From the IMG/VR virus record IMGVR_UViG_3300047409_000248, positions 1 to 64,000 of that record: DNA of 64,000 bases, one strand, 5' to 3'. Both the position numbers and the translations under genes were made by a program. The notes beneath the pieces are model-generated. The model saw nothing but the letters and a program-made list of their open reading frames with translations, was not told the DNA's origin and ran no database searches. Shown here piece by piece: positions 28,069-48,501 of the stretch; position 1 is the stretch's first letter; every line of letters starts with the position of its first letter. The stretch is from a virus.

Positions 28069-29280
28069 TTACTTGTAACTTACTGTCCTGCCATAGGGAG
28101 CTTTGGCGCCAGAGTTGGCCCAGTCTACCCAAACTACGGGAAACTCAGGCTGTGGACCAAAACTGGAGGTCATCATGTCCGTGAGGAAGATGCAGCCGAT
28201 GACATCGGACATCTCACCAACGGTCTTCATAGCGGTATCGAAGTTAGTCCCACCACCACCACCAGCATTCCAGCCCTTCAGGTCTTCTGAGGACTTGGCT
28301 TCCAGTGTGTTCTGGATGCGGGTATCCACAGAGATAAGCGTGACATGGTTGATCAGGTTCTGATCCAGAAGGCTTGCAGCCTCCTCGCACATTTCTTGGA
28401 TCATCTGCTGGCTGACTGAGCCAGAGACATCCAAGCACATGACCAGCTTGAACACCTTGTCATTTCCGTTCCCGGGAAAATATTCATCATTCCCAAGGCG
28501 GCGCCGGTTGGGCCGTGTCCAAACGCGAGTGGTGTTGGACTTGGCATCGCGAGACATATCCCGGATCAGGTCTTTCCAATCGATTTTCTCTTTCGGGAAA
28601 AGGTCTTGGATCAGACGCTGAAGATTACCGGGCATGGTACCGGGCGGGGATTTCTCGATAGCTCCCGCGACGGAATTCTTCCATTGGCGCTCGCCCTGTT
28701 CCTGTTCTTGCTCTGATGTCTCGTCAGAGAACATGGAGCCGGGCTTTTCTTGTTCTCCCTCTTGGCCCTCGCCTTCGCCTTCCCCGTCGCCATCTCCATC
28801 CTCAGGCTGGCCTTGACCCTGACCTTTGCCCTTCTGTTTCTGCTTCTGCTTTTCTTGTTTTTCTTCCTGCTGTTGCAGGAGTTCATAAACAGCCTCAGGT
28901 GATAGTTTGCTGAACTTATCATCCCTCAAAGCATCTTCAGGGAGCTTGAAATAGTCTTCCACGACCTTATTGGCCGGGAAAGAACAGGACTGGTTCCAGC
29001 GCTCCTCCTGACGATAGCGACGGCGGGAAACGTGCAACATCGCGCAATGCAGCACCGTCTTGAGCAGGATACCTTCCAGAAACTTGTCGGCTTCGCCATC
29101 TTCCACGAAATCAGGATTGTAAAAGATATCGATGCCGTTGGTCCAGACGGTTTGATGTTTCTTGCTCTCAATGATGTTTGCACCAAACAGGATTGATGCA
29201 AAGAACGGATTGCGCTTAGCCACGCGTTCCCGCGCTATAAGCATTCGTCGCATTGCAGTTGGTTTCAGAATGTTGAACAT
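28069..29280 (-). CDS. VWA-domain protein with degenerate metallopeptidase-like region (DUF2201-type)
   Basis: A 403-residue protein from ATG 29280, with AAGAGGGAAACC upstream. The N-terminal 110 residues match the DUF2201 peptidase-like segment, but the HExxH position reads KTVLH; the later H and WNQSC parts remain. A long Gln/Glu/Gly-rich linker follows (residues 140-215). A C-terminal VWA domain has the MIDAS motif DVSGSVS and LTDM. It pairs with the MoxR-type ATPase directly upstream, as in RavA-ViaA and CobS-CobT type chaperone systems. The leader is one of the repeated two-hairpin leaders. Confidence 0.82.
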   Translation of the reverse strand: MFNILKPTAMRRMLIARERVAKRNPFFASILFGANIIESKKHQTVWTNGIDIFYNPDFVEDGEADKFLEGILLKTVLHCAMLHVSRRRYRQEERWNQSCSFPANKVVEDYFKLPEDALRDDKFSKLSPEAVYELLQQQEEKQEKQKQKQKGKGQGQGQPEDGDGDGEGEGEGQEGEQEKPGSMFSDETSEQEQEQGERQWKNSVAGAIEKSPPGTMPGNLQRLIQDLFPKEKIDWKDLIRDMSRDAKSNTTRVWTRPNRRRLGNDEYFPGNGNDKVFKLVMCLDVSGSVSQQMIQEMCEEAASLLDQNLINHVTLISVDTRIQNTLEAKSSEDLKGWNAGGGGGTNFDTAMKTVGEMSDVIGCIFLTDMMTSSFGPQPEFPVVWVDWANSGAKAPYGRTVSYK

Positions 29281-29290
29281 TGGTTTCCCT

Positions 29291-29348
29291 CTTTGAGCGA
29301 GATTGCTCAATACTGGAGTGGATTTCACCACTCCAGAGTTTAGCAATC
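29291..29348 (-). promoter_or_regulatory. Two-hairpin leader of the VWA gene
   Basis: In the RNA, GATTGCT (29342-29348) can pair with AGCAATC (29301-29307) around the hairpin CTGGAGTGG/CCACTCCAG (29313-29336). The same middle strand can instead form TTGAGC/GCTCAA (29293-29310), next to the AAGAGGG ribosome site. It occupies almost the entire gap between the genes. Confidence 0.7.
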
Positions 29349-30386
29349 TTATTTGCCGCTGCCTTCCAGCAACAACTCCTTGAGTTGCGGGATATTCGCA
29401 AGAGACTTATCCCGGCTCATGGCGTCATGAACGCACATGGAAGCGACATCCGGCAACAGTCTTGCCAGATATTTGGCGAACTGCGCCGCGTTCTTGGCCG
29501 TCATGTTGCGAGCGATGGTGCCGCCCATCAGATACTGAAAGTGAGCATCTGCGGGAAGCTTGGCCTTGACCGGATCAGCTAAGATATCCGCGATCTTCGG
29601 CAGTCCTGCTGCCAAGCGATCAAGGAAACTCTCGAACTGACGGCTAAAACCCTCGCCCAAGATAGCCAGCGCCGCGTTGCCCAGAACCGTTTTCAGGGTT
29701 TTCTGGTCCAGTCCCAGCGCATCACTATCCTTAAGAACCTTATTGAAGTTCTCAAGACTGCGCGGCGTTGGAAATGCAGCATGATTGACATCCACCTTAT
29801 GGACCAACTCAGGACGAAGCTGGAGAAACGCGATCAGGCGCTTGTCCCAGCCCCATTCCTTGGTCTTTTCGATGAAGCCCGGCTCATCTACTTCCACAAG
29901 GATATGCGCCATGCGATTTTCAAGAGGCTTGAGCATCTTGTTATCGCCACCACCATCCTCGCGGGTATTGGAGCCCAGAATGATCCGGTTCTGCTTGGGA
30001 AGCGGATAGCCGCCGCAAGACCGATCCAGAACCAACTGGTAAGTCATCTGCTGAAGCTGGACGCTGGCATGACCGAATTCGTCATAGAACATGACGTGCA
30101 TATTGTCGTCTTCTTCCGGGACGAACGCGGGCCGCGTCCAGTATGTGGCCATCTTCTCGCGGTCAATCAGCGGCATGCCCGTGCCATCCACAATATCCTT
30201 TGTGGAAAGCCTAGTGTCATGCAAACGAGACTGGGGACCAAAATCACTCCTGACCTTGGTCATGATCTCGGTATTGATGACCGCAGACTTGCCGACGCCC
30301 GTTGGTCCCTTGATCATTACCGGAACGTTGGCGTGGATCAGGGGATACGCGACTTCGGCAAGCTTGGTAATTTTGCACTTTAACAT
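29349..30386 (-). CDS. MoxR-family AAA+ ATPase
   Basis: A 345-residue protein from ATG 30386. Walker A GPTGVGKSAV lies at about residue 28, Walker B VMFYDEFGHA at about 100, sensor-1 IILGSNTREDGGG at about 135 and an Arg-finger context PLENRMAHI. MoxR ATPases work with VWA partners to remodel or activate substrates; the partner is the next gene. A phage could use the pair to disarm or mature a host or phage complex. Confidence 0.87.
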   Translation of the reverse strand: MLKCKITKLAEVAYPLIHANVPVMIKGPTGVGKSAVINTEIMTKVRSDFGPQSRLHDTRLSTKDIVDGTGMPLIDREKMATYWTRPAFVPEEDDNMHVMFYDEFGHASVQLQQMTYQLVLDRSCGGYPLPKQNRIILGSNTREDGGGDNKMLKPLENRMAHILVEVDEPGFIEKTKEWGWDKRLIAFLQLRPELVHKVDVNHAAFPTPRSLENFNKVLKDSDALGLDQKTLKTVLGNAALAILGEGFSRQFESFLDRLAAGLPKIADILADPVKAKLPADAHFQYLMGGTIARNMTAKNAAQFAKYLARLLPDVASMCVHDAMSRDKSLANIPQLKELLLEGSGK

Positions 30387-30400
30387 CAAGGTTTTCCCTC

Positions 30401-30457
30401 TTGTAGAGCAGGATTGCTCAATAATGGGCTGGGATTAGCCAGCCCATAGTTTAGCAA
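30401..30457 (-). promoter_or_regulatory. Two-hairpin leader of the MoxR gene
   Basis: Hairpin 1 is TGGGCTGG/CCAGCCCA (30425-30446), flanked by TTGCT and AGCAA that can extend it. Hairpin 2 uses GAGC/GCTC (30406-30419) and abuts the ribosome site. The outer strand overlaps the stop codon of the upstream gene. Confidence 0.65.
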
Positions 30458-30630
30458 ACTGGTATCTTGAGACTTTTAGAGAAGCCATCGAGCTTTACTA
30501 TTAGCTCATTGGCTTCTTTATGATAGCCAGCGCAGAAAGACCACCAATTGATCTCTGCGATGGCTTCCGCAATTACTCGGCGAGTAATCTCTATATCGTC
30601 TTGTTGCGGATCGCCTTGACCATAAGCCAT
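30451..30630 (-). CDS. 59-residue protein
   Basis: ATG 30630 lies after GAGGAGGGCCACTAA, whose Shine-Dalgarno also encodes the end of the upstream peptide. The sequence is helical (ITRRVIAEAIAEINWWSFCA) and ends SKSLKIPVC. No family was recognised. Confidence 0.58.
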   Translation of the reverse strand: MAYGQGDPQQDDIEITRRVIAEAIAEINWWSFCAGYHKEANELIVKLDGFSKSLKIPVC

Positions 30631-30729
30631 TTAGTGGCCCTCCTCATTTGGAGATTTGTGTAAACGCGTGACTGAAGCAATCAACGCGATTGCCATGCCA
30701 AGCGCATACAGGATGAACAAGATTTCCAT
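30631..30729 (-). CDS. 32-residue membrane peptide
   Basis: ATG 30729 follows TAGAGGGAAT. One TM helix (ILFILYALGMAIALIASV) precedes a short cytoplasmic end in EEGH, where the codons form the ribosome site of the next gene. One of several micro-membrane peptides in this phage. Confidence 0.55.
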   Translation of the reverse strand: MEILFILYALGMAIALIASVTRLHKSPNEEGH

Positions 30730-30798
30730 ATTCCCTCTATCTCGCACTTTCTACAAAGCACGTTTATTGGGCGATTTTATGGCGCCCAATAGACTTAC

Positions 30799-31719
30799 TC
30801 AGAGATCGTATTCTGCTGCTTCTGCAACCATCTCAGACACTTCAAGATCAAGAGTGTCCAATTCCACGACTTTGGCTAGGATATCTTTGCCGCGAATAAT
30901 AGCGTCTTTACGGGAATAGGAACTATCCCGCAATTCACTGGCGGTAAGATGTCCCAATCTTGCAATCGACCGCGCTAGCAGTTTGATGTCTTCACTCTCA
31001 GTAATATTCATATCCCTGAGAAGTTCTGATATCTCCCTGCAATTGTTCACAAGACTATCGCGGATCAGCTTGCCATCGGCTGTTGATTTATAGCTCTCCA
31101 ACCTATCGACAAATATCCCCACGATTTCCTTGGCGCGGTTTACCATGGTCATGGCGGCCTCTTTCAGCCTCGTTTCAATCTCCAGCGACATCTGGCTGGT
31201 CGCTTGCGCTACAGCCTCTTTCGCTATGTCAGCCACGAAATGGCCGGTTGAAGGCATTGGCCAATACGTGAGCTTGAACCGGAACATATCCTTTGCCTTG
31301 TTGGGACTGGGATATTCAGTGCGATCAAACAAATCGCCTAGTTCTCGCTCGCTATCGGCTATCAGTGCAGGATAAACTTGCAAATACTCATCCCATGCCA
31401 AGCGTAATTCGTGCTCAGCATCTGAGATTTTCCTTGTGAATTCATCATGCACCGCGACCGGAAGCAATCTGGTTTTGTCATCGCCCCATGGTAGAGAGTA
31501 TTTGTAAACAATTTCGCGTACCCTCTGCGATGCAGCAACAACGGCTTTGACCTTGGCATGCCTACGGTCGATAAGGAACTTGCTGGCTTTTGCGCGCCGG
31601 TCATGAAGATTGAACTTTCTTTCCACATATCCGGTTGCTGTCTTGTCGCGCCGTTCACCCAGCAATCCGCCATTTATAATGGTCACAGAAACAAGCATTG
31701 CAGATTTGGCTAGGTCCAT
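30799..31719 (-). CDS. DUF3150-like protein of the MoxR/VWA module
   Basis: A 306-residue helical protein. The pattern (YSLPWGDDKTRLLPV, then a long helix with LRLAWDEYLQVYPALIAD, YPSPNKAKDMFRFKLTYWPM) fits DUF3150 proteins, which neighbour MoxR-type ATPases and CobT/VWA proteins in phages and plasmids. It was placed by pattern and context, not by a search. It probably acts with the two downstream genes. Confidence 0.62.
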   Translation of the reverse strand: MDLAKSAMLVSVTIINGGLLGERRDKTATGYVERKFNLHDRRAKASKFLIDRRHAKVKAVVAASQRVREIVYKYSLPWGDDKTRLLPVAVHDEFTRKISDAEHELRLAWDEYLQVYPALIADSERELGDLFDRTEYPSPNKAKDMFRFKLTYWPMPSTGHFVADIAKEAVAQATSQMSLEIETRLKEAAMTMVNRAKEIVGIFVDRLESYKSTADGKLIRDSLVNNCREISELLRDMNITESEDIKLLARSIARLGHLTASELRDSSYSRKDAIIRGKDILAKVVELDTLDLEVSEMVAEAAEYDL

Positions 31720-31730
31720 TTGAATGTTTC

Positions 31731-31793
31731 CCTCTTATAGAACGCTCGTTTGGCGCTCATCACTGAGGCTCTAAAGCCTCAGGACATGAACGT
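31731..31793 (-). promoter_or_regulatory. Two-hairpin leader of the DUF3150-like gene
   Basis: Hairpin 1 is CTGAGGC/GCCTCAG with loop TTTA. The outer GTTCAT and ATGAGC pair across a small internal loop. Hairpin 2 (AGCGC/GCGTT, with one G-U pair) reuses the ATGAGCGC strand and abuts TAAGAGGG. Confidence 0.65.
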
Positions 31794-31990
31794 CATTTCT
31801 CAACCATGAGAAAGGTGGCTTTCCCATCCGATATTTGGATTATCCCGAGTTTATCGGGATGATCGAATACTTCAGCGCTATCTGGGTTGATCCAGGTTCG
31901 CTCAAATGCCGTCCAGCTAGCAGCTAGCAATCCTCCGATGAAAGCTAATTCGGCCTCTTTTGTCTCGAAAGACAGTTGATAGGCTATCAT
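31793..31990 (-). CDS. 65-residue protein
   Basis: ATG 31990 overlaps the upstream stop in TGATG. The protein is half helical (MIAYQLSFETKEAELAFIGG) and half beta (KLGIIQISDGKATFLMVEK). No family was recognised. Confidence 0.58.
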   Translation of the reverse strand: MIAYQLSFETKEAELAFIGGLLAASWTAFERTWINPDSAEVFDHPDKLGIIQISDGKATFLMVEK

Positions 31991-32388
31991 CAGTGCAGTG
32001 TCTTGCCGTCTTTGCGCGGAGATTTCTGCACACCACAATCGCAAATATGATCGTGGCATTGGTCCGCTACCATTCCGAAATTATCCTCGCTGATATGGCC
32101 CATTTGCGCGGCCATGATCATGAAAGGTCTGATTGCTTCAATGGGCAATCCGATGGCTTTGCGAATTCGCTTTGCCTTGAAGATGGCATACTTGCCAACC
32201 TTAGTCGGAGCTTCGTCCATCTGCTTGGTTTCAGCGAAAAACGGCATGATAAGAAGATACCGCCAGAAGGTTTCCGCGTTGCTTTCCCATTGCGGGAAAA
32301 ACTCAGCCAGCTTGCGCTTGCTGAAAGTCACACCATTGACCCTGAAGGCCGCCGATGTCTCGTTACATTCGATGCACATGACAGGCAT
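31990..32388 (-). CDS. Small zinc-binding-type protein
   Basis: A 132-residue protein. CIEC near the N-terminus and CHDHICDCG near the C-terminus could bind zinc together. The centre is helical (FFPQWESNAETFWRYLLIMP). The leader is a two-hairpin leader. Function unknown. Confidence 0.6.
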   Translation of the reverse strand: MPVMCIECNETSAAFRVNGVTFSKRKLAEFFPQWESNAETFWRYLLIMPFFAETKQMDEAPTKVGKYAIFKAKRIRKAIGLPIEAIRPFMIMAAQMGHISEDNFGMVADQCHDHICDCGVQKSPRKDGKTLH

Positions 32389-32399
32389 GGTTAAATCTC

Positions 32400-32463
32400 C
32401 CTCTTGTAGAGCATAATGCTCTATGCTGCGCTACGTGATTTGTACATAGCGCAGTGAAGAACA
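32400..32463 (-). promoter_or_regulatory. Two-hairpin leader of the 31990-32388 gene
   Basis: Hairpin 1 is CTGCGCTA/TAGCGCAG (about 32426-32454). GTTCT and AGAGC flank it and can pair. Hairpin 2 is the perfect TAGAGC/GCTCTA (about 32407-32423) immediately before the ribosome site GAGGGAG. Confidence 0.7.
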
Positions 32464-32607
32464 TTAGACATATTCGTGGAATTGCGTTCCGTATTGCTCC
32501 GCGACCTGTTCTTTGGTCAGCGGTGGATTGCGCTTTTCGTGGATCATCTGCTTATAATTGAGCGCATAGTAAGTCACCCAATTAGCTGCATGTGGATATC
32601 CTACCAT
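32464..32607 (-). CDS. 47-residue hypothetical protein
   Basis: ATG 32607 has AAGGA 11 nt upstream. The product (MVGYPHAANWVTYYALNYKQ, ending EQYGTQFHEYV) has the aromatic-rich look of a real small phage protein. A separate ATG further upstream opens only ten codons (MANLRPYRAF) in another frame behind a better ribosome site, which may be a leader peptide or indicate a frameshift. Confidence 0.45.
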   Translation of the reverse strand: MVGYPHAANWVTYYALNYKQMIHEKRNPPLTKEQVAEQYGTQFHEYV

Positions 32608-32664
32608 TTGGAACGGCGTCCTTGGCCGCTTCAGAAGGCGCGATATGGGCGTAGGTTGGCCATT

Positions 32665-32940
32665 TTAATGGCCCTCCTCAAACGTATCCACAAGCTCAAA
32701 ACCGGCCTCATCAAGCTCCATCGTCATATATGTTATGGGCTGGTTGATGGTTTCGGCATAAGCTTTGACGGTTTGATCTGGCGCGCAGAATATTTCATCT
32801 GCCGCTGTTTCCAGCAGTTGTTGATTTTTAATGAACCAACCAGCGCCAGCGATTTCAGCCTCATCGCGGTTTTTGGCTTCCACCTCAATCTCAATTCCGA
32901 TTGCTGCGGAGGCTTCAAAATGCACTTTAAATTTTGGCAT
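32665..32940 (-). CDS. Small alpha/beta protein
   Basis: A 91-residue protein starting MPKFKVHFEASAAIGIEIEV and ending in EEGH, where the codons supply the downstream ribosome site. The pattern of a single beta-alpha-beta unit is plain; function unknown. It has a two-hairpin leader. Confidence 0.62.
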   Translation of the reverse strand: MPKFKVHFEASAAIGIEIEVEAKNRDEAEIAGAGWFIKNQQLLETAADEIFCAPDQTVKAYAETINQPITYMTMELDEAGFELVDTFEEGH

Positions 32941-32950
32941 GGTTTTCCCT

Positions 32951-33003
32951 CTTATTGAGCGTAATGCTCATCACTGAAGCCCGTAAGCTTCAGGACATGA
33001 GCA
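32951..33003 (-). promoter_or_regulatory. Two-hairpin leader of the 32665-32940 gene
   Basis: The clearest case: GCTCAT and CTGAAGC pair with GCTTCAG and ATGAGC across a small internal loop. The ATGAGC strand can alternatively pair with the following GCTCA, which touches AATAAGAGGG. Hence GCTCAT, ATGAGC and GCTCA occur in order as competing partners. Confidence 0.75.
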
Positions 33004-33117
33004 CTAGATAAAACAGGCTATGATAAAGCCTATACTGCCAAAGCCTATTGTAAGGGTCAGGCAGTCAAAGATTGCAGTGCGGAATTCCGCTTCTTCCTGC
33101 GTCATGATATGAGCCAT
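33004..33117 (-). CDS. 37-residue membrane peptide
   Basis: A hydrophilic start (MAHIMTQEEAEFRT) precedes a TM helix (CLTLTIGFGSIGFIIACFI) to the stop. It overlaps the 33102 peptide by 16 nt in another frame. Function unknown. Confidence 0.48.
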   Translation of the reverse strand: MAHIMTQEEAEFRTAIFDCLTLTIGFGSIGFIIACFI

Positions 33118-33182
33118 ATCATTCCTGCGGCCCAGAGCGCCATATAGACGCCCCAGAACGCAACCAGATATTTGTCAATCAT
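33102..33182 (-). CDS. 26-residue membrane peptide
   Basis: ATG 33182 overlaps the upstream stop in ATGA. MIDKYLVAFWGVYMALWAAG and a few more hydrophobic residues make a single TM helix. Too short for certainty; the coupling is the main support. Confidence 0.42.
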   Translation of the reverse strand: MIDKYLVAFWGVYMALWAAGMIWLIS

Positions 33183-33373
33183 GAGCTAACCCATGATGCG
33201 CCGCAGGCCAGATAGAATTGCTCCGCGTGAAAGTTGGCATTGGTATCGCCAAGCCGGTCAGCGAAAGCCTTTGCGACTTTCTGCTTTTCAGCTTGTTCGA
33301 TGTCCAAGCCATCAATCGTTGCGGCAATCAACTCGAAATGCCGTCGCTGCATTGATGTTTGATGTCTTGCCAT
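33179..33373 (-). CDS. 64-residue hypothetical protein
   Basis: ATG 33373 lies after AAGAGGGAAAACACC. Basic start (MARHQTSMQRRHFELIAATI), then helical; ends ACGASWVSS. The longer frame upstream runs through the hairpin leader and is rejected. Function unknown. Confidence 0.62.
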   Translation of the reverse strand: MARHQTSMQRRHFELIAATIDGLDIEQAEKQKVAKAFADRLGDTNANFHAEQFYLACGASWVSS

Positions 33374-33385
33374 GGTGTTTTCCCT

Positions 33386-33442
33386 CTTGAAGCTTAAGCG
33401 CTTCGTGCTGCACCTATTGCTAGGTGCAGTGTCGAAAAGCTT
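33386..33442 (-). promoter_or_regulatory. Two-hairpin leader of the 33179-33373 gene
   Basis: Hairpin 1 is CTGCACC/GGTGCAG; TTCG and CGAA flank it across an internal ACA/CA loop. Hairpin 2 is the perfect GAAGC/GCTTC stem with GCTTAA-rich loop, directly before AAGAGGG. The outer strand overlaps the stop of the upstream gene. Confidence 0.7.
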
Positions 33443-33689
33443 ATTCTGCGGCTTGCAATTCACGCGTGCTGCGCTTGATGGCAGCCCGAACCGAATTCAA
33501 CGCTCCGAAAACCTTGGATTTAATTTCCTTGTTTCCGATTGCGTTGGCATGCGGCCAAGCGAGTTCAAGCGCAGTCTTTGCAGCGCCGAATTCACCGTTG
33601 CGGATAAGACGCTCTGCGGTAGAAAGATGCAGGGTCAACGTGACTTTGTGACTGTCGCGCTCTGCATCGTTCAATTGCCTTTTTGCCAT
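33441..33689 (-). CDS. 82-residue helical protein
   Basis: MAKRQLNDAERDSHKVTLTL start, with two further helices (AAKTALELAW and GALNSVRAAIKRSTRELQ). It looks like a small TPR-like or helical-bundle protein. It has a two-hairpin leader and the phage ribosome site. Function unknown. Confidence 0.62.
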   Translation of the reverse strand: MAKRQLNDAERDSHKVTLTLHLSTAERLIRNGEFGAAKTALELAWPHANAIGNKEIKSKVFGALNSVRAAIKRSTRELQAAE

Positions 33690-33705
33690 GGTATTTCCCT
33701 CTTAG

Positions 33706-33751
33706 AGCGGAATGCTCTATGACGCTCTCCGTAGAGAGCGCTTAGAACACT
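33706..33751 (-). promoter_or_regulatory. Two-hairpin leader of the 33441-33689 gene
   Basis: Hairpin 1 is CGCTCTC/GAGAGCG with a TACG loop. GTTCT and AGAGC can extend it. Hairpin 2 is TAGAGC/GCTCTA with loop ATTCC, next to AAGAGGG. Confidence 0.68.
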
Positions 33752-33930
33752 CAATCAGCGTCGTCAGTCTTGAGCGGGGAAGCGTAGTAATATTGTTCGT
33801 TCTTTGCGTACAGGAACGCTCCGAGCTTGACGACTTTAACGCCGCCGCGCTTAAGCGCCACTTCCATCGTATCGCCTTCAGCCATACGAATAGGAGATTT
33901 AACCGCCCAAACCTTTGCAAATTGTGCCAT
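33751..33930 (-). CDS. 59-residue beta-rich protein
   Basis: MAQFAKVWAVKSPIRMAEGD start, then a Gly-Gly turn with VKVVKLGAFLYAKNEQYYYA. A small barrel-like protein is likely. The ribosome site is AGAGAGGGAAAACAC. Function unknown. Confidence 0.6.
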   Translation of the reverse strand: MAQFAKVWAVKSPIRMAEGDTMEVALKRGGVKVVKLGAFLYAKNEQYYYASPLKTDDAD

Positions 33931-33940
33931 GTGTTTTCCC

Positions 33941-34000
33941 TCTCTTGAAGCAAAATGCTTCGTGCTGGAGAGTGGTTAAGCTCTCCAGTGTCGAAACACT
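33941..34000 (-). promoter_or_regulatory. Two-hairpin leader of the 33751-33930 gene
   Basis: Hairpin 1 is CTGGAGAG/CTCTCCAG. TTCG and CGAA flank it through an ACA/CA internal loop exactly as in the 33386 leader. Hairpin 2 is GAAGC/GCTTC with loop ATTTT next to AAGAGAGGG. Confidence 0.7.
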
Positions 34001-34002
34001 CG

Positions 34003-34512
34003 CTAAAGACAAGCGCCAGCTTTGATCCGGAAGCGAGCGGAACTAAATCCGCCAGATACAGGGTCAGTGATTACCAGTTGACCGTCCTGGCGAAGCATCC
34101 AATTTCCGCTGTGCAAATCGCCGCTAAGATTGTTACGGCGAAGTTCAGCGACATATTCAACGATATCCGTTGCTTCGCATTGGCCGCGATTAAAGATATT
34201 ATTGAAGACACGCGCTTGTGCTGTTCTAGCACCATGTTCGTATTTGAGTTCACTCATGGTGCAGATAAGGCGTTCCATGATAGCCACGTAAAACTCATCA
34301 TGGAATTTCAGGCTGTAGACCTTGGGAGCGAATTTCCCAGCGTGGCCGTTATTCGTGGCCCATTGGATATAGGAAGGCCATTCGTCCAGTTCCCCAACCT
34401 TAATCACCTTATCGAAGGCGTTAGGAATGGAGTAAACCTTGGAATAAAGGCCGCTCCCTATCTGGAGACATCCAAGCTCTGCCAGTCTTGCCTGATATTC
34501 GCGTTGGTTCAT
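34003..34512 (-). CDS. T7 gp0.7-like protein kinase
   Basis: A 169-residue protein with a minimal kinase fold. It has a Gly loop IGSGLYSKVYSIPNAFDKVI ending in VIKVG (the conserved Lys), a hinge YVAIMERL, a catalytic loop SGDLHSGNWML and a metal loop ITDPVSG. The order and the phrases GLYSxVYS, VIKVG, HSGN and ITDPVS match the kinase domain of T7 gene 0.7 as I remember it. T7 gp0.7 phosphorylates host RNA polymerase and RNases and shuts off host transcription. Here the protein is kinase domain only. A two-hairpin leader precedes it. Confidence 0.82.
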   Translation of the reverse strand: MNQREYQARLAELGCLQIGSGLYSKVYSIPNAFDKVIKVGELDEWPSYIQWATNNGHAGKFAPKVYSLKFHDEFYVAIMERLICTMSELKYEHGARTAQARVFNNIFNRGQCEATDIVEYVAELRRNNLSGDLHSGNWMLRQDGQLVITDPVSGGFSSARFRIKAGACL

Positions 34513-34600
34513 GGTGGTTTCCCTCTCTATGGCAGTTGAAAATTGCCTAACCGGCTAGACTAAACGCCTAGCCGAAATAATGTGCTGAGGTATTCTAATA
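34513..34600 (-). promoter_or_regulatory. Two-hairpin leader of the kinase gene (variant)
   Basis: Hairpin 1 is CGGCTAG/CTAGCCG. Hairpin 2 uses GGCA/TGCC around a longer loop, with a GAGAGGGAAACC ribosome site. The outer-strand complementarity seen in the other leaders is weak here. Confidence 0.55.
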
Positions 34601-34816
34601 CTAAGCTCCGATACGCCATATGTCAGAAGTGACATTATGGTGGTCGATTGCGCCGCATGATTTAAGCCCGGCTTTCACCGGGATACGAAAATCGTTTGGC
34701 CTTGTTTTCCATGTCTGAGTTTTGCCATTGCGGCGGCATTTCCAATAGTTCCCGTTGCCCATACGGGCATAAAGCGAACCATTGTCCAATGCCGTTTCAA
34801 GTGCTTCCTTTGTCAT
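34601..34816 (-). CDS. 71-residue basic protein
   Basis: MTKEALETALDNGSLYARMG start, followed by NYWKCRRNGKTQTWK, a beta-hairpin with basic and aromatic residues that could bind nucleic acid. This is the first gene of the leftward early block, next to the divergent hub. Its leader contains a weak GGC/GCC stem. Function unknown. Confidence 0.58.
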   Translation of the reverse strand: MTKEALETALDNGSLYARMGNGNYWKCRRNGKTQTWKTRPNDFRIPVKAGLKSCGAIDHHNVTSDIWRIGA

Positions 34817-35533
34817 GGTATGTAATCCCTCTTTCGGCTAAATTGCCTAATAGCTAAAGAGGCTTAGCAGGGTAGGAAGTCGGAAAATGAATTCCGGCTA
34901 ACCACACTGCCAAGCCTCTAAAGCCAAAAAGCCAGCTTTCTAGGGCTAGCTGGTAGTAGAGAGAAAAGGGTATGGAACAGCTTGTTACGGCTGTTCCCCA
35001 TGTTGCCAAGTGCAATGCTTGGTATCATCCCCCCATGCCAACCTGCTCAATGAGACTTACGGCGCGATCCGGGGATAGGTAGCTTATGACGACCAGACGA
35101 TGCTGGCGCTACTGTCCCGCCTTGCTAGGCAATGGAAAGAGGAGTTTTAGGCGTTCTAGCCCGATTTTTATCCCCGCCATGGTTACTCTCGCTCCGCTAC
35201 ACGGGAACGCTATGCCCCTATCGCGTAAGCTACCCTAGCCATAGTCCAGAAAGGGAAATTGCTCGCAAGTATTGCCTAATGAGGGCTGGATCGCTGGAGG
35301 TTGTCTGTCCCTCCTTGGACGGCATATGGCGCTTGCTACGCCTGCCGGGACTAGGGCCTAATCGACCTAGTGGCTGAATGCGCTCTATCAAATCTCCATC
35401 TCGTTAACCTGAGATAAAGATACGCCTTTGTAGCAATCCAGTTAGTGGGTTAGACGCATGGCTGGTATGCGCTGAGATCATAACGCTTGCTAAGTGTAGC
35501 TAATCAATGCATTATTGCATGGCAGGTATGCAC
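34817..35533. other. Non-coding divergent region with serial hairpins
   Basis: No convincing gene in 717 bp. In the first 165 bp four stems follow one another: AGGCTTAGCAG with CTGCCAAGCCT (34860-34870 and 34907-34917, with an inner CGGAA/TTCCG), CCAGCT/AGCTGG (34932-34953), GGAACAGC/GCTGTTCC (34974-34997) and CCAAG/CTTGG (35006-35022). The rest has no clear structure. The leftward early block ends here and the rightward block starts beyond, so promoters or an origin are expected. I could not pick one promoter with confidence. Confidence 0.5.
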
Positions 35534-35845
35534 ATGACGCAGCAATGCTCTAATTGCCAATCAATCCACGATGCATCTGGGCGCTACTGTAAGCCTTGCC
35601 GAGCGGCTTATATGCGAAATTATCGCCGCATCAATCCTGCCAAGCCATCGCACGAGCAACGCTCTAAAGCCATCTGTAGGGCTACCGCTAACGTCTACAA
35701 ACGTAGAGGCAAGATAACCCTAGAACCATGTGAGCATTGCCTAGCTGATAAAGTCGAAATGCATCATGACGACTATACCAAGCCCCTAGTCGTCAGGTTC
35801 CTATGTGTCCCATGCCATAGGGCGCTGCATTATCCCGGACCATGA
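35534..35845 (+). CDS. HNH-type nuclease with zinc ribbon
   Basis: A 103-residue protein. ATG 35534 has AGG at 7 nt; ATG 35507 is an alternative. The N-terminal ribbon has CSNC and CKPC pairs. The C-terminal HHDDYTKPLVVRFLCVPCH is the same module as in the 15586 gene. It is isolated inside a non-coding region, as homing nucleases often are. Confidence 0.75.
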   Translation: MTQQCSNCQSIHDASGRYCKPCRAAYMRNYRRINPAKPSHEQRSKAICRATANVYKRRGKITLEPCEHCLADKVEMHHDDYTKPLVVRFLCVPCHRALHYPGP

Positions 35846-42166: not shown

Positions 42167-42378
42167 TTCTTCTCCAGATCGCGCGGGATATAATCCTCTG
42201 TGGCCATGGCTCGCATCAGGCGGGATATTTCGAGGTCCATGACGAGTATCTTCCCCATGACTTCCTTGGTGGATTTTGGATCAGCCCTCATGGCAATCCG
42301 AAGTATCTCCATCCAGTTGTTGTTATTGTATGACCTGACACGTTCGATCTGGTCCAGAAGATGCTCATCAGTGATCAC
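42163..42378 (-). CDS. Small helical protein inside the sugar cassette
   Basis: A 71-residue protein (MITDEHLLDQIERVRSYNNN, then LRIAMRADPKSTKEVMGKIL). It overlaps its neighbours by 4 and 11 nt. It is not a known sugar enzyme and may be a phage filler gene caught within the operon. Function unknown. Confidence 0.6.
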   Translation of the reverse strand: MITDEHLLDQIERVRSYNNNNWMEILRIAMRADPKSTKEVMGKILVMDLEISRLMRAMATEDYIPRDLEKK

Positions 42379-43489
42379 TTAATCTCCTCCTCAATTCATC
42401 TAGATGTTCCAGCTTGATATCATAGGAGCATGTCTCGATCAGCATCAGCTTGCCGAGACTGCGATAGACATCGGTATCCAGAAGCTCCATCTGGCGCTGC
42501 GGAGTAAGCCACTTGTTGCTAACCGTCATGGTCAGCAGGTTACCATGATAGCCAAGCGAAACCGGGATGGGATTTCTAGCCCTAATCCAATCTACTATGG
42601 TGGAAGGATTGTATTCCTCACTGGGATCAACCAGCATCGAGAAGGCGTAATAGGTATGGTCGCAGCCCGCTCTGGGCTTGGGAACACCGAGAAATTCAAA
42701 TCTGGAAAATATCTCAGCAAGATGGCTGGCAATCAGTTGCCTGCTGGCAACGATGCGGGGAAGTTTCTTGAGTTGTTCTCGCCCTACGGCTGCGGTCAGT
42801 TCTGTCATGCGAAGATTAAGCCCGGGAGTTTCCTGATGACGGCACTCACCATGATTGATGGCGTCATGTAGCTTCATAAGGAGATCGCCATCCTTGGTCA
42901 TTACCATGCCGCCCTCTCCGGTCTGGATATGCTTGTGTACGTTCAGGGAGAACACGCCCATATGGCCGATGGTGCCGGTAAACTCCCCGTCCTCGCGCGC
43001 CATGATCGCCTGAGCGTTATCCTCAATCAGGATAATACCGCGACTGTCACACATGGAACGCAACTGCTTGAGCTTGGCTGGATGGCCGAACATATTGGTG
43101 GCGATCACGGCTTTGGTGTTTTCCGTAATCTGCCTGCCGACATCATTGGGATCAAGGCAGAACGTTTCGGGTTCGATATCCGCCAGAATGATCGTGGCTC
43201 CCAGCACCGCAGGCGCACAGGCGGTTGCTGACATCGTGAAGTAGGGAACGATCACTTCATCCATCGGCCCTACACCAGCCGCCATACAGGCTGCCAGCAA
43301 ACCAGACGTGGCTGAATTACAGGAGACGGCATATCCGCCAAAGGCGCTTTCCCATTCAGCCTCGAATAATGTTACCTCCGCGCCTGCCTTGCTGCTGCTT
43401 GCTACAAAGCCTGACAGGTTGCCGCTGCGGATCACCCGCAAGACGGCCTCTTCTTCCTCTTTGCCGATGGTCAAAAACTTCTGGATCAT
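42368..43489 (-). CDS. DegT/DnrJ/EryC1 sugar aminotransferase (PseC position)
   Basis: A 373-residue protein. PLP-fold markers: CNSATSGLLAACMAAGVGP, DEVIVPYFTMSATA, ILIEDNAQAI, and the lysine motif NVHKHIQTGEGGM. It aminates a 4-keto nucleotide sugar, the expected step after the 4,6-dehydratase encoded upstream. Coupled by ATGA to a 44-residue gene. Confidence 0.88.
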   Translation of the reverse strand: MIQKFLTIGKEEEEAVLRVIRSGNLSGFVASSSKAGAEVTLFEAEWESAFGGYAVSCNSATSGLLAACMAAGVGPMDEVIVPYFTMSATACAPAVLGATIILADIEPETFCLDPNDVGRQITENTKAVIATNMFGHPAKLKQLRSMCDSRGIILIEDNAQAIMAREDGEFTGTIGHMGVFSLNVHKHIQTGEGGMVMTKDGDLLMKLHDAINHGECRHQETPGLNLRMTELTAAVGREQLKKLPRIVASRQLIASHLAEIFSRFEFLGVPKPRAGCDHTYYAFSMLVDPSEEYNPSTIVDWIRARNPIPVSLGYHGNLLTMTVSNKWLTPQRQMELLDTDVYRSLGKLMLIETCSYDIKLEHLDELRRRLSDH

Positions 43490-43620
43490 TTCTTTTTCTT
43501 TTCTTCCAGCTTATCGATTAGAGATAATATGACTGCGCTCTCAGCCGCCCTCAACTCTTTGAGAACCTCTATCCTCCCCTTGAGTGACCTGATAATCTTT
43601 TTGTAAGTTTTCTTCTTCAT
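43486..43620 (-). CDS. 44-residue Lys-rich peptide
   Basis: ATG 43620 overlaps the dehydratase stop (ATGA) and its own stop overlaps the aminotransferase start (ATGA). The peptide (MKKKTYKKIIRSLKGRIEVL, ending LIDKLEEKKKK) is helical and basic. The double coupling makes it likely to be translated. Function unknown. Confidence 0.58.
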   Translation of the reverse strand: MKKKTYKKIIRSLKGRIEVLKELRAAESAVILSLIDKLEEKKKK

Positions 43621-44534
43621 AGGTAGGTCCGCAATTGCTCTATGGTCAGGAATTTGGTGTTGGTGTCGCTGGAGTACCGGAAACCCGGCTTGACGTTGTT
43701 GCTGATATCCGGGTTCAGGATGTATCGATCATGAGCTTCCAGCGCCAAGTAGCTCTCCTCCTCCGTCATCAGTACCTCATGCAGCTTCTCGCCCGGCCTG
43801 ATGCCAACGATCTTCATGCCGAGATCAGGCGCCATCGCGGTTGCCAGATCAACCACGCGCATGGAGGGAAGCTTGGGGATGAATATCTCACGGCCCTTCA
43901 TCATCGAGAGGGATGAAAGGACAAGTTCTACCGCCTGATCCATCGTCATCCAGAAGCGTGTCATGCGAGGGTCCGTGATCGGTAGTTCCTGCTTTAGCCT
44001 ACTAAGCCGGTCAAATAGAGGAACCACAGAACCCCTAGAACCAACAACGTTCCCATAACGGCAGACAGAATAATTACATCGTCCAGCACTGACATTATTT
44101 GCGGCGACAAGGATTTTTTCTGCGGCGAGTTTAGTCGCTCCGTAAAGGTTAAGCGGTGATACAGCTTTGTCAGTAGACAAGCCGATAACACGGTCCACAC
44201 CAGCAGCAAGACTAGCCCGACAGACATTTTCGGCTCCATGGATATTGGTCAGCACGCACTCGAACGGATTATATTCCGCAATCGGCACCACCTTCATGGC
44301 AGCCGCATGGATTACAGTATCGATCCCGTTCATGGCCATTTGAAGGCGTGGCTGGTCGCGGACATCGCCAATGAAGAAGCGCAGGCGCTGATCATCGAAC
44401 TTCCGCGCCATATCCTCCTGAAGATGCTCTCCGCGCGAGTATATGACGATGCGATCCGCCAGCTTGTCATCCAGCAGCCGCTTGGTGAATGCCTGCCCAA
44501 ACGATCCAGAACCTCCCGTAATAAGAACCCTCAC
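43617..44534 (-). CDS. pseB: UDP-GlcNAc 4,6-dehydratase (inverting), PseB-like
   Basis: A 305-residue extended SDR enzyme. It has the nucleotide loop TGGSGSFGQAF, FFIGDVRD, VIHAAAMKVVPIAEYNPFEC, catalytic STDKAVSPLNLYGATK and YGNVVGSRGSV. The MKVVPIAEYNP phrase is characteristic of PseB and FlaA1-type dehydratases. It converts UDP-GlcNAc to a 4-keto-6-deoxy sugar, the first step of pseudaminic acid synthesis. Confidence 0.92.
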   Translation of the reverse strand: MRVLITGGSGSFGQAFTKRLLDDKLADRIVIYSRGEHLQEDMARKFDDQRLRFFIGDVRDQPRLQMAMNGIDTVIHAAAMKVVPIAEYNPFECVLTNIHGAENVCRASLAAGVDRVIGLSTDKAVSPLNLYGATKLAAEKILVAANNVSAGRCNYSVCRYGNVVGSRGSVVPLFDRLSRLKQELPITDPRMTRFWMTMDQAVELVLSSLSMMKGREIFIPKLPSMRVVDLATAMAPDLGMKIVGIRPGEKLHEVLMTEEESYLALEAHDRYILNPDISNNVKPGFRYSSDTNTKFLTIEQLRTYL

Positions 44535-44875
44535 TTAACCTCCAAAATCTCTACGCCAGCTTTTCGGGCCTTATTGATCATATCAGCGGTGCCGTTTCCG
44601 CCCGGGAAGGCGACTACCAAATCAGGGCCCCACGTCAGCATATGTGCATTTCGTATTGGACCTGCGGCTAGTCCATGCGTATCCCAGTCAGCGTAACTTA
44701 CGTATCTGGTAATTTCGGGCTTGGTCTTGGCCCAATCACTGGCAAAGGTATCAACTCCTTTGGCGCCACCATGAATGAGATCAGTAAACTTATGGATGGA
44801 ATGCAGGGCATCCAGCGCCTTCGATACTTGCGCTGGACTCCTGAAGTTCCTGCCACCACAGACCAGAACTCTCAT
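44531..44875 (-). CDS. YspA-like SLOG protein (DUF2493)
   Basis: A 114-residue protein. The Rossmann-like SLOG motifs are evident: MRVLVCGGRNFRSPAQV, LIHGGAKGVDTFASDWA and DLVVAFPGGNGTADMINKA. The family binds nucleotides or derivatives and often has no assigned reaction. Its presence inside the sugar operon with 4-nt overlaps suggests a nucleotide-sugar or precursor-sensing role. Confidence 0.85.
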   Translation of the reverse strand: MRVLVCGGRNFRSPAQVSKALDALHSIHKFTDLIHGGAKGVDTFASDWAKTKPEITRYVSYADWDTHGLAAGPIRNAHMLTWGPDLVVAFPGGNGTADMINKARKAGVEILEVK

Positions 44876-45072
44876 TTGTGCTCTTTTACCAAACCAAGGA
44901 AATCAAGAAGTTGATGGCGTCCATCGGCACGCTTAGTGTGCTCTTGCGCCTTGGCAACAGTAGCATCTGCTTTGGCTTTGGTATTTTGCATGGACGCAAA
45001 GGTGAGGAAGCCTACGGCCCCTACCATAGTTACAAAGCCCGCGATCCAAACAATCATTGTCCTGCGATCCAT
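44872..45072 (-). CDS. Small membrane-anchored protein
   Basis: A 66-residue protein from ATG 45072 (TGATG with the upstream stop). One TM helix (MIVWIAGFVTMVGAVGFLTF) is followed by a charged soluble tail. It may tether the pathway to the membrane; no family was recognised. Confidence 0.58.
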   Translation of the reverse strand: MDRRTMIVWIAGFVTMVGAVGFLTFASMQNTKAKADATVAKAQEHTKRADGRHQLLDFLGLVKEHK

Positions 45073-47054
45073 CACCTAACTCCCTTGGCTGCAACCAGAC
45101 CACCATCCAGATGTTCTAGGATGTCAGAGCCTACGGCTTCTTCGATCTTCTTGAGGGCTTCGTGCCATCCGCCGATGATGCGTAGAAATTCAGACTGCCT
45201 GTGGACAGCACTTAGATTATGGCTTCCGATAATCAACACACCAGCCTTAGCCATCTCCTGAATGAACAGGGTCTGGATGCCATTGTTCTTGAACTTGATG
45301 CGATTGAGTTCTGGTAGCCCATAAAGACTGATGAAGTCTTCAAGGCCATAATCGCCGATGATCTTGTTCAAAACCGACCGCAAATTAATGCCATCTAATT
45401 GAAGCTTTTCATGAACCAAATCCCGCTCCAGCTTCTCAATGGTGGCGATAGCTGCTGCGATGGAAAGCGTCTCGCCAAAGAAAGTCCCGGAATAACTAAT
45501 CTCTGGCATATGCTTCATATACTTCTCCAGACCAACCAGCGCCGATATGGGCATGCCGTTAGCCATGGATTTGCCGAAACATGCCAGATCAGGAATGACG
45601 CCCAGCGAAGCCTGTAGACCACCCAGACCACACCTGAAGCCGGTAATGATCTCATCGAAGATCAGGATGATGCCACGATCAGTGCAATCAAGCCTCATTT
45701 GCTTCAATTCCTGTGGAGAATAGAATTCAGGCTCCACAATGCAGGCAGCAATCTCACCTGAAGGAGTTATCTGATCAAAGGTACAGCTATTGGCCTTGAC
45801 CCCATCCGGGATGCCATTATTGCGTATGGTATGAGCCATACTCCAATCGTGCCAGCCGTGATAGCCTCCCACCATGACCTTATCGCGCCTCGTCACATGC
45901 CGAGCCAGTCTTACTGCTGCTGTAGTGACATCAGAGCCGTTCTTGCCGAACTTCACCATCTCAGCACAGGGGATATGCTTAGTCAGGATGGAGGCAAGTT
46001 TTTCCTCCAGTGGTGTCGCAAGACTAAAACTAATACCAGAATTAAGCTGATGCCTAATAGCTCCGTCCACGTCTGGGTCACGATACCCAAGTATGTTAGG
46101 CAGAAGGGCACCGACGCAATCAACATAATCATTACCATCCACATCAAATACATAGGCCCCATCTCCATGGGTAACGAACAGTGGCGCTGCGCCCTCCGGG
46201 AACATCAGCTTGCTCTTGCTGAAAGTTTGAGTTCCGAGAGGTATTAAGCTCTCAGCAGCGCTCAGCAATGCCTTGGAGTTCGAGTAGGATCGCTTGACAC
46301 TACCCTCGCCAGCTAGCGCTTCATAGAAGCGTTCGTTGCGGGAGTATTTCGCGTTGATCTTTCTAATCCACGGCTCCTTATCAAGGATTGACAGGATTTG
46401 TAGATAGCTGGGTGGCGTGCCGCTATCCCCAAGCATCTTCGCGACTTCCCGAACGAAGTCATAATCCTCCGGACTATCGAGAACCCATCTCTCCCGAACC
46501 AGATCAGGAACGCCGCAGACAAGGTTAGCCGCCAGAAAACGATAACGGTTTCGGACCATAAATCGCGTAACAGTATCCCGATCAGTTGGCCGCACTGCTT
46601 CACGATTTGCCGCCTCCAGAGCATCTTTGGTGAACACTTCCACATCAAGGCCATCCGGGTAAGTGGGAGGATCAGTGTTAGTAGCATAGTCAGCATTCCT
46701 CATAGTGCGAAGCCGAATGACTTCACCGATAACGGCTGGATCAAGGAAAGGGCAATCAGCGGTCAGGCGCACGATGATATCGGCACCAGTAGCACTCAAT
46801 GCCGCCAGATAGCGCGAGAGTACATCCGTCTCGCTGCCTCTGACGACATTGATACCGCGTTTGGATGCCCACTGAGCAATGGCATCATCCTGAGGGAGGG
46901 TGGAAGTCGCGACAACCACCTCATCCACGCCCGGGGCACGGCGGGCAGCTTCTACCACCCATTCAATGGTCGGTCTACCCGCAATGTCCATCAATACCTT
47001 GCCCGGCAGACGGGTTGATCCCATGCGGGCCTGAACTACAGCTACGGTCTTCAT
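45072..47054 (-). CDS. Fusion of SpsF-type cytidylyltransferase and class III aminotransferase
   Basis: A 660-residue protein. Residues 1-230 are a cytidylyltransferase: VVQARMGSTRLPGKVL, VVVATSTLPQDD, LTADCPFLDP and TYPDGLDVEVF. Residues about 255-650 are a GSA-aminomutase-like PLP enzyme: FVTHGDGAYVFDVDGNDYVD, ILIFDEIITGFR and the lysine motif CFGKSMANGMPIS. The first half would make a CMP-nonulosonate; the second moves an amino group on a precursor. No gap or stop separates the halves, so the fusion is real. Confidence 0.9.
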   Translation of the reverse strand: MKTVAVVQARMGSTRLPGKVLMDIAGRPTIEWVVEAARRAPGVDEVVVATSTLPQDDAIAQWASKRGINVVRGSETDVLSRYLAALSATGADIIVRLTADCPFLDPAVIGEVIRLRTMRNADYATNTDPPTYPDGLDVEVFTKDALEAANREAVRPTDRDTVTRFMVRNRYRFLAANLVCGVPDLVRERWVLDSPEDYDFVREVAKMLGDSGTPPSYLQILSILDKEPWIRKINAKYSRNERFYEALAGEGSVKRSYSNSKALLSAAESLIPLGTQTFSKSKLMFPEGAAPLFVTHGDGAYVFDVDGNDYVDCVGALLPNILGYRDPDVDGAIRHQLNSGISFSLATPLEEKLASILTKHIPCAEMVKFGKNGSDVTTAAVRLARHVTRRDKVMVGGYHGWHDWSMAHTIRNNGIPDGVKANSCTFDQITPSGEIAACIVEPEFYSPQELKQMRLDCTDRGIILIFDEIITGFRCGLGGLQASLGVIPDLACFGKSMANGMPISALVGLEKYMKHMPEISYSGTFFGETLSIAAAIATIEKLERDLVHEKLQLDGINLRSVLNKIIGDYGLEDFISLYGLPELNRIKFKNNGIQTLFIQEMAKAGVLIIGSHNLSAVHRQSEFLRIIGGWHEALKKIEEAVGSDILEHLDGGLVAAKGVR

Positions 47055-47884
47055 TCTAATCCTGCTTTCTGTCTCGCTTGCATCACAATTTCCAGTGCGG
47101 CTACTCCATCAGCGCCATCAGCCAATGGTCCGGGATCACCACCATCAACGGCCCGAAGGAATGCGCTCATCTCATCAAGGTAGACCTGATCCCAATTATC
47201 CTTGGTCAGGCTGTATCTTGCAGATTTATTCGAACCGATTATTTCAAACTGGCGTATCTCAGGATCGGTGATATAATCCGCTGCAATCTGAACATTCATC
47301 TCATGCTCAATGGACGAAGCTTCGATCAGGCAAGATATATCCTGCCCTTTGTTCATAACAGCAAGGCACTCACTAACATGCAGATTACCTAGCAGATATC
47401 TTGCGATATCAATCTCATGAGAAGCCCAGTTTCGGATCACCCCATCCCTGAGATATTCCGGCTTTTCGTTTTTTTGCCTGACCTCAAATGAGGCGTGCTC
47501 CAGCCTGCCAAAATATCCTCGTTCTATCTTTTTCTTGGCTTCCTGAACCACCGGATGGAAACGGCACATGAAGCCAGTTGCAACAACCAGATCAGGCTTT
47601 GCCCTTCTGGCGCCCATGATTAGTCCAGCGATAAAGGGCGGGCTATCAAATCCAATAGGCTTCTCAACAAGTACGTGCTTACGAGCGCCAAGGACATCTA
47701 TAAGGTCTGAGGCATGCGCCTTGGTGGGAGACGCAATGATCACAGCATCAGCTTCATGGATGACATCTACTCGCCGCATGGATAGCTGCTCAGGGTCATA
47801 GGCGATAACCTGATGACCCAGCAGCATCAGGTTGCGGGCGTGTCTTGTGCCGATGGAGCCGAGTCCGAGAATTCCGACAAGCAT
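47051..47884 (-). CDS. Gfo/Idh/MocA-family oxidoreductase
   Basis: A 277-residue protein with an N-terminal NAD loop (VGILGLGSIGTRHARNL) and the family signature HVLVEKPIG. The C-terminal part (ASHEIDIARYLLG) fits the substrate domain. It oxidises or reduces a sugar hydroxyl or keto group. It could supply a modified nonulosonate or precursor. It overlaps the methyltransferase upstream by 58 nt. Confidence 0.88.
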   Translation of the reverse strand: MLVGILGLGSIGTRHARNLMLLGHQVIAYDPEQLSMRRVDVIHEADAVIIASPTKAHASDLIDVLGARKHVLVEKPIGFDSPPFIAGLIMGARRAKPDLVVATGFMCRFHPVVQEAKKKIERGYFGRLEHASFEVRQKNEKPEYLRDGVIRNWASHEIDIARYLLGNLHVSECLAVMNKGQDISCLIEASSIEHEMNVQIAADYITDPEIRQFEIIGSNKSARYSLTKDNWDQVYLDEMSAFLRAVDGGDPGPLADGADGVAALEIVMQARQKAGLE

Positions 47885-48501
47885 GGAAATGCAGCCTTCT
47901 GATCTTTCTTGAGAAGCCAGACAGCGGTGCCGTCCGGCATGGCGTTCTTTGCAACAAGCTTATAGGCAGGATTGGCTAGCCAGAGTTGGCTCCAGTCCAT
48001 TTTATATGTGAGCAATCCATCTACATGCTTGTTTGGGACAGAATGAGGAAACTCTGGGTCAAAATCATGAATAATGATGTAGCCGCCATCTTGCAGGATA
48101 TTGTTGCCTTGGGTCGCGATCTCGAAATGCTCTTCGGGATCACAAACATAAAGGCAAAAACCATAGATGATTAAGCTAAATGCATTTGCTTGATATGGAT
48201 GACCAGTGACGGTCCCACGATCTATATGAATATTTGGGAAGCGGGCCTGTCCATTTGAGATCGCCACAGCGGATGGATCAAGCCCACAGCACTCCCAGCC
48301 ATAATAATTTCTAAGATTTTCTAATCTCCAGCCATTAGAACAGCCAAACTCAAGGACACCTCTGCCATGAGATGGCAGCACGCTCTGCTTCATTATGGCG
48401 AAGACTGGATCATGAGCTTCTTCGTCCTGCATCTTCCAGAAGTTACGGTTGAACCAAGCGTCTCCTTCGCCCTCTGCAAAGATATCTTCCTGCTTGCCCA
48501 T
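47827..48501 (-). CDS. Class I SAM methyltransferase
   Basis: A 224-residue protein from ATG 48501. Motif I is GVLEFGCSNGWRLENL, followed by CCGLDPSAVAIS and FSLIIYGFCLYVCDPEEHF. The family is common in sugar-modification operons. A role in methylating the nonulosonate or a peptide is inferred from context only. Confidence 0.82.
   Translation of the reverse strand: MGKQEDIFAEGEGDAWFNRNFWKMQDEEAHDPVFAIMKQSVLPSHGRGVLEFGCSNGWRLENLRNYYGWECCGLDPSAVAISNGQARFPNIHIDRGTVTGHPYQANAFSLIIYGFCLYVCDPEEHFEIATQGNNILQDGGYIIIHDFDPEFPHSVPNKHVDGLLTYKMDWSQLWLANPAYKLVAKNAMPDGTAVWLLKKDQKAAFPCLSEFSDSAPSAQDTPAT

Follow-up and report, generated by a model that had tools for sequence, protein, structure and literature searches.

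Hairpin leaders of the early block

The window, which comprises bases 1-64000 of a 74,179-bp IMG/VR virus record, carries an early block of genes that runs leftward on the minus strand from 34816 to 28069, and in which gaps of ~60-115 nt precede eleven genes (named here by their start coordinates). The nine gaps with stems described in an initial annotation of this DNA are all present, and two hairpin leaders that it had missed, those of genes 30729 and 34816, join them. Eight leaders (29280, 30386, 31719, 32388, 32940, 33373, 33689 and 33930) display the full plan of a three-armed RNA element, in the order upstream stop codon, arm a, upper stem, arm b, arm c, AAGAGGG and ATG. Both arm a and arm c are complementary to arm b (GAAGC...), which can pair with only one of them at a time: a:b extends hairpin 1 through a 3x2-nt internal loop and over the stop codon, and b:c constitutes hairpin 2. 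The layout of two successive hairpins given in the initial annotation thus captured the upper stem and b:c, and overlooked the a:b pairing and the embedded stop codon in these eight leaders. They are listed below with their scores against covariance model (CM) R1; arm c is given together with the Shine-Dalgarno (SD) sequence where indicated.

33931-34003, minus strand: leader of gene 33930 (57.5 bits, E 3.5e-15); arm a 33992-34000, upper stem 33981-33988 / 33965-33972, arm b 33954-33962, arm c with SD 33938-33951; the nick is predicted at 33963-33964, within the loop strand
33690-33753, minus strand: leader of gene 33689 (34.2 bits); arm a 33744-33751, upper stem 33734-33740 / 33723-33729, arm b 33711-33718, arm c with SD 33697-33708
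33374-33443, minus strand: leader of gene 33373 (55.7 bits, E 1.2e-14); arm a, stop codon TAA included, 33433-33443, upper stem 33423-33429 / 33408-33414, arm b 33395-33405, arm c with SD 33382-33393
32941-33006, minus strand: leader of gene 32940 (45.2 bits); arm a 32997-33005, upper stem 32987-32993 / 32974-32980, arm b 32963-32971, arm c with SD 32947-32960
32389-32467, minus strand: leader of gene 32388 (45.1 bits); arm a 32458-32465, upper stem 32447-32454 / 32426-32433, arm b 32415-32422, arm c 32408-32412
31720-31795, minus strand: leader of gene 31719, DUF3150-like (41.8 bits); arm a 31786-31791, upper stem 31776-31782 / 31763-31769, arm b 31755-31760, weak arm c 31740-31745, which has no exact complement to arm b
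30387-30460, minus strand: leader of gene 30386, MoxR ATPase (15.8 bits, E 0.016), with orthologous leaders in relatives; arm a 30453-30458, upper stem 30439-30447 / 30424-30432, arm b 30413-30418, arm c with SD 30396-30410
29281-29351, minus strand: leader of gene 29280, VWA/DUF2201 (23.0 bits, E 1.1e-4); arm a 29342-29347, upper stem 29328-29336 / 29313-29321, arm b 29302-29307, arm c with SD 29287-29298

As read, the leader of gene 33930 is AGTGTTTCG aca CTGGAGAG..CTCTCCAG ca CGAAGCATT tt GCTTC AAGAGAGGG. The three remaining leaders of the block are built differently.

34817-34930, minus strand: class II leader of gene 34816, which opens the early block; its long imperfect hairpin (34858-34919) is followed by TTAGGCAATTTAGCC
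34513-34603, minus strand: class II leader of gene 34512; hairpin 34552-34574, then GGCAATTTTCAACTGCC at 34531-34547, without arm a; not a CM match
30730-30801, minus strand: atypical two-hairpin leader of the small gene 30729, recognized by sequence and fold; hairpins 30783-30791 / 30765-30773 and 30755-30761 / 30744-30750; not a CM match

The common layout that had been assigned to nine genes holds for eight of them, the leader of gene 34512 being of class II, which is defined by a hairpin followed by TTAGGCAATTT..GCC without arm a and which in several relatives precedes the first early gene or the first two. A second hairpin similar to that of the 34816 leader also occurs at L002:3346 and L004:2822. 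The hairpin ahead of the first early gene holds, at 34851-34926 (minus strand), the sequence TGGCAGTGTGGTTAGC, which is like insect miR-34; the Rfam mir-449 match there (E 6.7e-5) lies far under the gathering score and was taken as coincidence. The AAGAGGG that the initial annotation had counted as part of the signal is the general SD motif of the phage (AGAGGGA is found 26 times in the window versus 9 expected), and is thus not part of the signal.

Covariation and distribution of the three-armed element

The architecture was tested blind to structure on all ATG starts with an AGAGGG-type SD in the window and in four relatives chosen by the similarity of their ATPase protein (n=48). The upper stem and a:b were present in 32 of these leaders and all three arms in 30, whereas dinucleotide shuffles predict ~1.7 and ~0.06, respectively. 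Within the early block of the window, 8 of the 11 leaders have a:b and the upper stem, compared with 0.37 in dinucleotide shuffles, and 6 of the 11 have arm c as well (0.03 expected), while none of the 13 SD-preceded window genes outside the early block shows the architecture.

The pattern GTTTCGRCAYTG...CANYRCGAAGC matches 27 viral-contig stretches and 21 genome contigs. Three Bradyrhizobium genomes among the latter are real; the other 18 of the 21, as well as viral L033, L037 and L039, gave no CM match and were put down to chance. A covariance model (A2, R1) was built from 30 sequences. In the window, R1 recovers 8 copies at E<=0.016 and has no match of credible score outside the early block; in the fetched loci it gave 155 matches, or 106 without duplicates and antisense echoes. 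Sequences picked by pattern or CM lean toward the model, which does not apply to the structure-blind test. The carriers comprise about two dozen phage contigs plus the three Bradyrhizobium genomes, a prophage-like region of the cultured Bradyrhizobium elkanii WSM2783 (L057) being one example, and 17 of the 20 records that were searched whole are CM-positive, with up to 10 copies per phage. The copies stand in tandem on one strand within a single early block per phage, always in mRNA sense and directly after a stop codon. Since only 3 of 399 genomes of Bradyrhizobium's family possess the element, it belongs mainly to phages.

The check proposed with the initial annotation, a covariance model searched against phage genomes, thus yielded 106 non-redundant copies, in which the upper-stem, a:b and b:c pairings all covary. 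Over a:b and the upper stem (114 distinct rows, 1792 cells), 95.6% of the cells are paired, versus 69% in shuffled alignments and 32-48% when slid by 1-3 columns, and two-sided changes number 461 versus 130. In 74 of 106 copies b:c contains five or more consecutive Watson-Crick pairs, versus 2.4 by shuffling. GCTTC is present for 58 of the 80 GAAGC arms b and for 0 of the 26 other arms b, among which an exact complement of their own was found for 15. This joint change of a, b and c is the signature of two real, mutually exclusive helices. Selection for dissimilar upper stems inside one genome was not seen, within-genome stems being slightly more alike than between-genome stems.

The lower stem continues over the stop codon, which begins 4 or 5 nt ahead of arm a (offset -4/-5) in ~77 of 106 copies. 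At each of the offsets -1 and -3, 105 of the 106 copies have a Watson-Crick pair, with two prevailing base pairs per offset, where base composition predicts 79; at offset -4 such a pair is present in 76 of 106 (45 expected), and offset -2 is often A.C (38). Pair +1 is U.G in 93 of 106 copies and pair +2 is U-A in 106 of 106; the conserved wobble argues for RNA and against DNA. The internal loop is 3x2 in most copies and reads ACA/CA in 40 of 106. The statement of the initial annotation that pairing and not sequence is conserved is borne out by the strong covariation, with the qualification that the lower stem GUUUCG/CGAAGC and the ACA/CA loop are kept as sequence in a large subset.

An element has a mean size of 18.5 bp plus the 3x2 loop. 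In the minimum-energy fold of the intact leader a:b is paired in 93 of 106 copies; when arm a is blocked, arm b pairs downstream in 95 of 106, and in the folded would-be downstream product arm b lies inside a hairpin in 96 of 106. The next ATG typically follows 24-35 nt past arm b. The mean unpaired probability of the SD is 0.55 in the intact leader versus 0.61 with arm a blocked, and its accessibility changes by >0.2 in only 14 of 93 cases, so that an SD-masking translational riboswitch was rejected. Arm c is found in ~70-90% of copies, and three leaders of L003 (near 3861, 5856 and 9372) have a third hairpin added between hairpin 2 and the SD.

No family of Rfam 15 matched at gathering score, BLAST of phage isolates returned no relatives, and the element was not found in the searched literature, where the papers listed by a search for the motif letters were all unrelated. 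The element is a real, strongly covarying and previously undescribed RNA family. The proposal of the initial annotation that the early block has a dedicated RNA-level control or processing signal is supported by the covariation, by the single early block per phage and by the U.G wobble.

Neighbouring genes and a second lineage

Two sets of early genes accompany the leaders.

28069-31719, minus strand: early trio, consisting of a DUF3150-like gene (30799-31719), a MoxR ATPase (29349-30386) and a VWA/DUF2201 gene (28069-29280; Pfam DUF2201)
34003-34512, minus strand: mini protein kinase, the second early gene (PHROG 15752, E 1.1e-17)

The trio is clustered in 9-10 of the 17 carrier records. The kinase, with its G-loop and its VIKVG (in GSGLYSKVY...VIKVG), DLHSGN and ITDPVS motifs, relates to the N-terminal part of T7 gp0.7 (29% identity, E 2e-9); the phage itself is not T7-like. 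The T7 kinase increases the catalytic efficiency of RNase III 7.4-fold (PMC4858673). A T7-like kinase as general partner of the element was rejected, since among the 17 carriers it was found in the window phage only. Phage RNase III (PF14622) was found in 0 of the 17 carrier records, with positive controls, so that the host enzyme is meant wherever RNase III is invoked below.

Upstream of the early block, at 34930-35560 (minus strand), lie ~600 nt without a clear gene, with a terminator-like hairpin at their end (34951-34930); this region is possibly a non-coding RNA. Farther away, a sugar biosynthesis cluster that is conserved in close relatives (42368-49313, minus strand) encodes a DegT-type aminotransferase, a Polysacc_synt_2 epimerase, a GFO/IDH/MocA oxidoreductase and a methyltransferase, and is probably involved in surface polysaccharide modification.

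The trio is also carried by Planktothrix phage Pra-JY27 (L123) and Synechococcus phage MinM2. The gaps of Pra-JY27 (564-1464 and others) hold TGACCCTCGC|ACC|CGCGAGCC..GGCTCGCG|TA|GCGATGGCCA, which is like the main element in having the stop codon in the lower stem, the same A.C mismatch, a 3x2 loop and a varying upper stem; the lower-stem sequence is unrelated. Its arm b (GATGG) can re-pair with a downstream CCATC in some copies, and the gaps also hold the palindrome GGTTCAG-N-CTGAACC. A sequence-free scan found four copies in Pra-JY27 in which TGA stands precisely at the first position and the loop is 3x2, and one more with a 4x3 loop; the same scan of T7, CRP-901, Pkon1, phiFa and MW202675 gave scattered chance matches only, and none were found when IMG/VR was scanned for the Planktothrix variant. 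Since R1 has no match in Pra-JY27, conservation of the architecture extends further than that of the sequence, and the occurrence of this architecture with unrelated sequence in Planktothrix-associated phages suggests that it is old or has had more than one origin.

Possible function and comparison with known systems

The best explanation of the element, and on balance a probable one, is processing by RNase III with handover of an arm. The anatomy, the covariation of the three arms, the embedded stop codon, the confinement to the early block, the unmasked SD and the T7-like geometry are results of computation; the enzyme, the position of the nick, the handover in vivo and the protective purpose are what we infer. 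Each leader would serve to process the mRNA between two cistrons. As long as the polycistronic early RNA is uncut, arm a, which contains or adjoins the upstream stop codon, would form with arm b ~10 lower bp which, with the 3x2 asymmetric loop and an upper stem of ~8 bp, make up about two turns of interrupted duplex, and host RNase III would nick the internal loop on its 3' strand. The mRNA of the upstream gene would then end with its stop codon and hairpin 1 as 3' protection, and the downstream mRNA would start with arm b, which, once freed, would pair with arm c into a 5'-terminal hairpin before an open SD. The ribosome that terminates at the stop codon within the lower stem presumably strips arm a from arm b, and the exchange may be favoured by the U.G in a:b at the place where b:c has C-G.

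Several points weigh against this explanation. RNase III has little sequence specificity, and the invariant U-A and near-invariant U.G of the lower stem could reflect recognition by another protein. After a cut in one strand the 10-bp a:b duplex would still have to be displaced, and a b:c run of 4 or more is absent in 12 of the 106 elements. There is no T7-type consensus, the best T7 score of R1 being 8.3 bits (E 0.39) within a coding region. The kinase occurs, among the 17 carriers, in the window phage only, and as it was not found in the other 16 it is no more than suggestive.

Next best after RNase III processing ranks a translation-coupled switch without cleavage, in which arm a is hidden under the terminating ribosome, so that arm b switches to arm c and initiation at the next start is tuned. 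The position of the stop codon 4 or 5 nt from arm a, the location of arm a wholly inside the footprint of a terminating ribosome and the conserved a/c exchange speak for such a switch, but neither state masks the SD or AUG appreciably and a switch has no need of a conserved internal loop or of T7-like geometry; we consider it rather unlikely. The U.G and U-A pairs at fixed places and the ACA/CA loop resemble a recognition code, as would be expected if the loop and the wobble formed the site of a phage or host RNA-binding protein, acting in antitermination (like HK022 put or lambda nut) or in translational control. However, loop and lower stem vary among the copies of one phage and are wholly replaced in the Planktothrix phages, no small protein is common to all carriers in the gene clusters examined, and put and nut sites stand singly or in pairs close to promoters instead of recurring at every gene junction, which makes a protein site an unlikely explanation.

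Static mRNA-stability hairpins that act as 3' and 5' barriers to nucleases, like REP/BIME, without cleavage or switching, would agree with the strong hairpins that flank each cistron and with the copies that have no arm c. They would leave the fixed internal loop, and one arm with two conserved partners, unexplained, and we give them slightly less credence still. It is very improbable that the structures act in DNA, as cruciform operators or as single-strand hairpin promoters of the kind known from N4-like phages: relatives of the ATPase and VWA proteins do occur in N4-like phages and a hairpin stands ahead of each gene, but the conserved G.U wobble and the A.C mismatch would make for weaker stems in DNA, the elements are always in mRNA sense right after a stop codon, promoter-like sites are not above chance, and N4 early promoters are few and have short stems. 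N4-like hairpin promoters, a candidate prompted by the ATPase matches to these phages, were rejected since other hallmark proteins do not match; a PF00940 search gave nothing, and its control was equally silent.

A wider scheme is put forward tentatively: every cistron boundary would be a three-strand exchange device, an undescribed class of phage RNA in which a stop codon, a lower stem conserved together with its fixed defects (A.C, U.G and 3x2 loop) and a re-pairing arm divide a polycistronic RNA into single-gene mRNAs with a hairpin at both ends, the readers being the terminating ribosome and a nuclease or some other factor. The family, new to Rfam and with >100 strongly covarying members, provides a testable model for the division of early transcripts in phages outside the T7 group, a model in which stop codon, ribosome and nuclease are linked in a single 60-nt element. 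It could also serve as a compact tool for operons whose genes end on separate, protected mRNAs.

The closest known parallel is formed by the early RNase III sites of T7. When R0.3, R0.5, R1, R1.1 and R1.3 were folded side by side with the element, each formed a lower and an upper stem, the latter of ~9 bp, separated by an internal loop, with the cut, at the positions that we take to be those of T7, beside the loop on the 3' strand. As in T7, the elements lie in mRNA sense between early genes of one polycistronic RNA, consist of a hairpin of ~18-20 bp (about two helical turns) broken by an internal loop, and, in the window phage, share their block with a gp0.7-related kinase. The 3' product of R1.1 refolds to a 5' hairpin, GATTGACC..GGTTAAT, a possible precedent, by analogy, for the handover. 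R1.1 has a 4/5-nt asymmetric loop and is cut at a single bond into 47 + 13 nt, also by the RNase III of the alphaproteobacterium S. meliloti (PMC4858673, PMC6121014). In contrast to T7, which keeps the sequence of the upper stem and varies the lower, the new element keeps the lower and varies the upper, and it has a 3x2 loop, a stop codon in the lower stem, an arm c and up to 10 copies per phage; cleavage is known for T7 and predicted for the new element. As R1 fails on the T7 sites, these are filed as working alike and not as homologues.

Other systems share single traits with the element. HK022 put RNAs and lambda nut sites are likewise paired hairpins with an internal loop in phage early RNA, but are few and promoter-proximal, and have no mutually exclusive arm or anchoring to a stop codon. 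Attenuators and riboswitches also have a middle arm common to two mutually exclusive stems; unlike these, the element has no T-run terminator, SD masking, ligand domain or Rfam match, and a T-run behind the stem, whose absence the initial annotation had rightly noted, was found in none of the leaders. Stem-loops at the 5' end, which impede RppH and stabilize mRNA (ompA and papA type; PMC3997798), resemble the element in placing a short 5' hairpin just ahead of an open SD, whereas the 5' hairpin of the new element would form only once arm b leaves the other hairpin.

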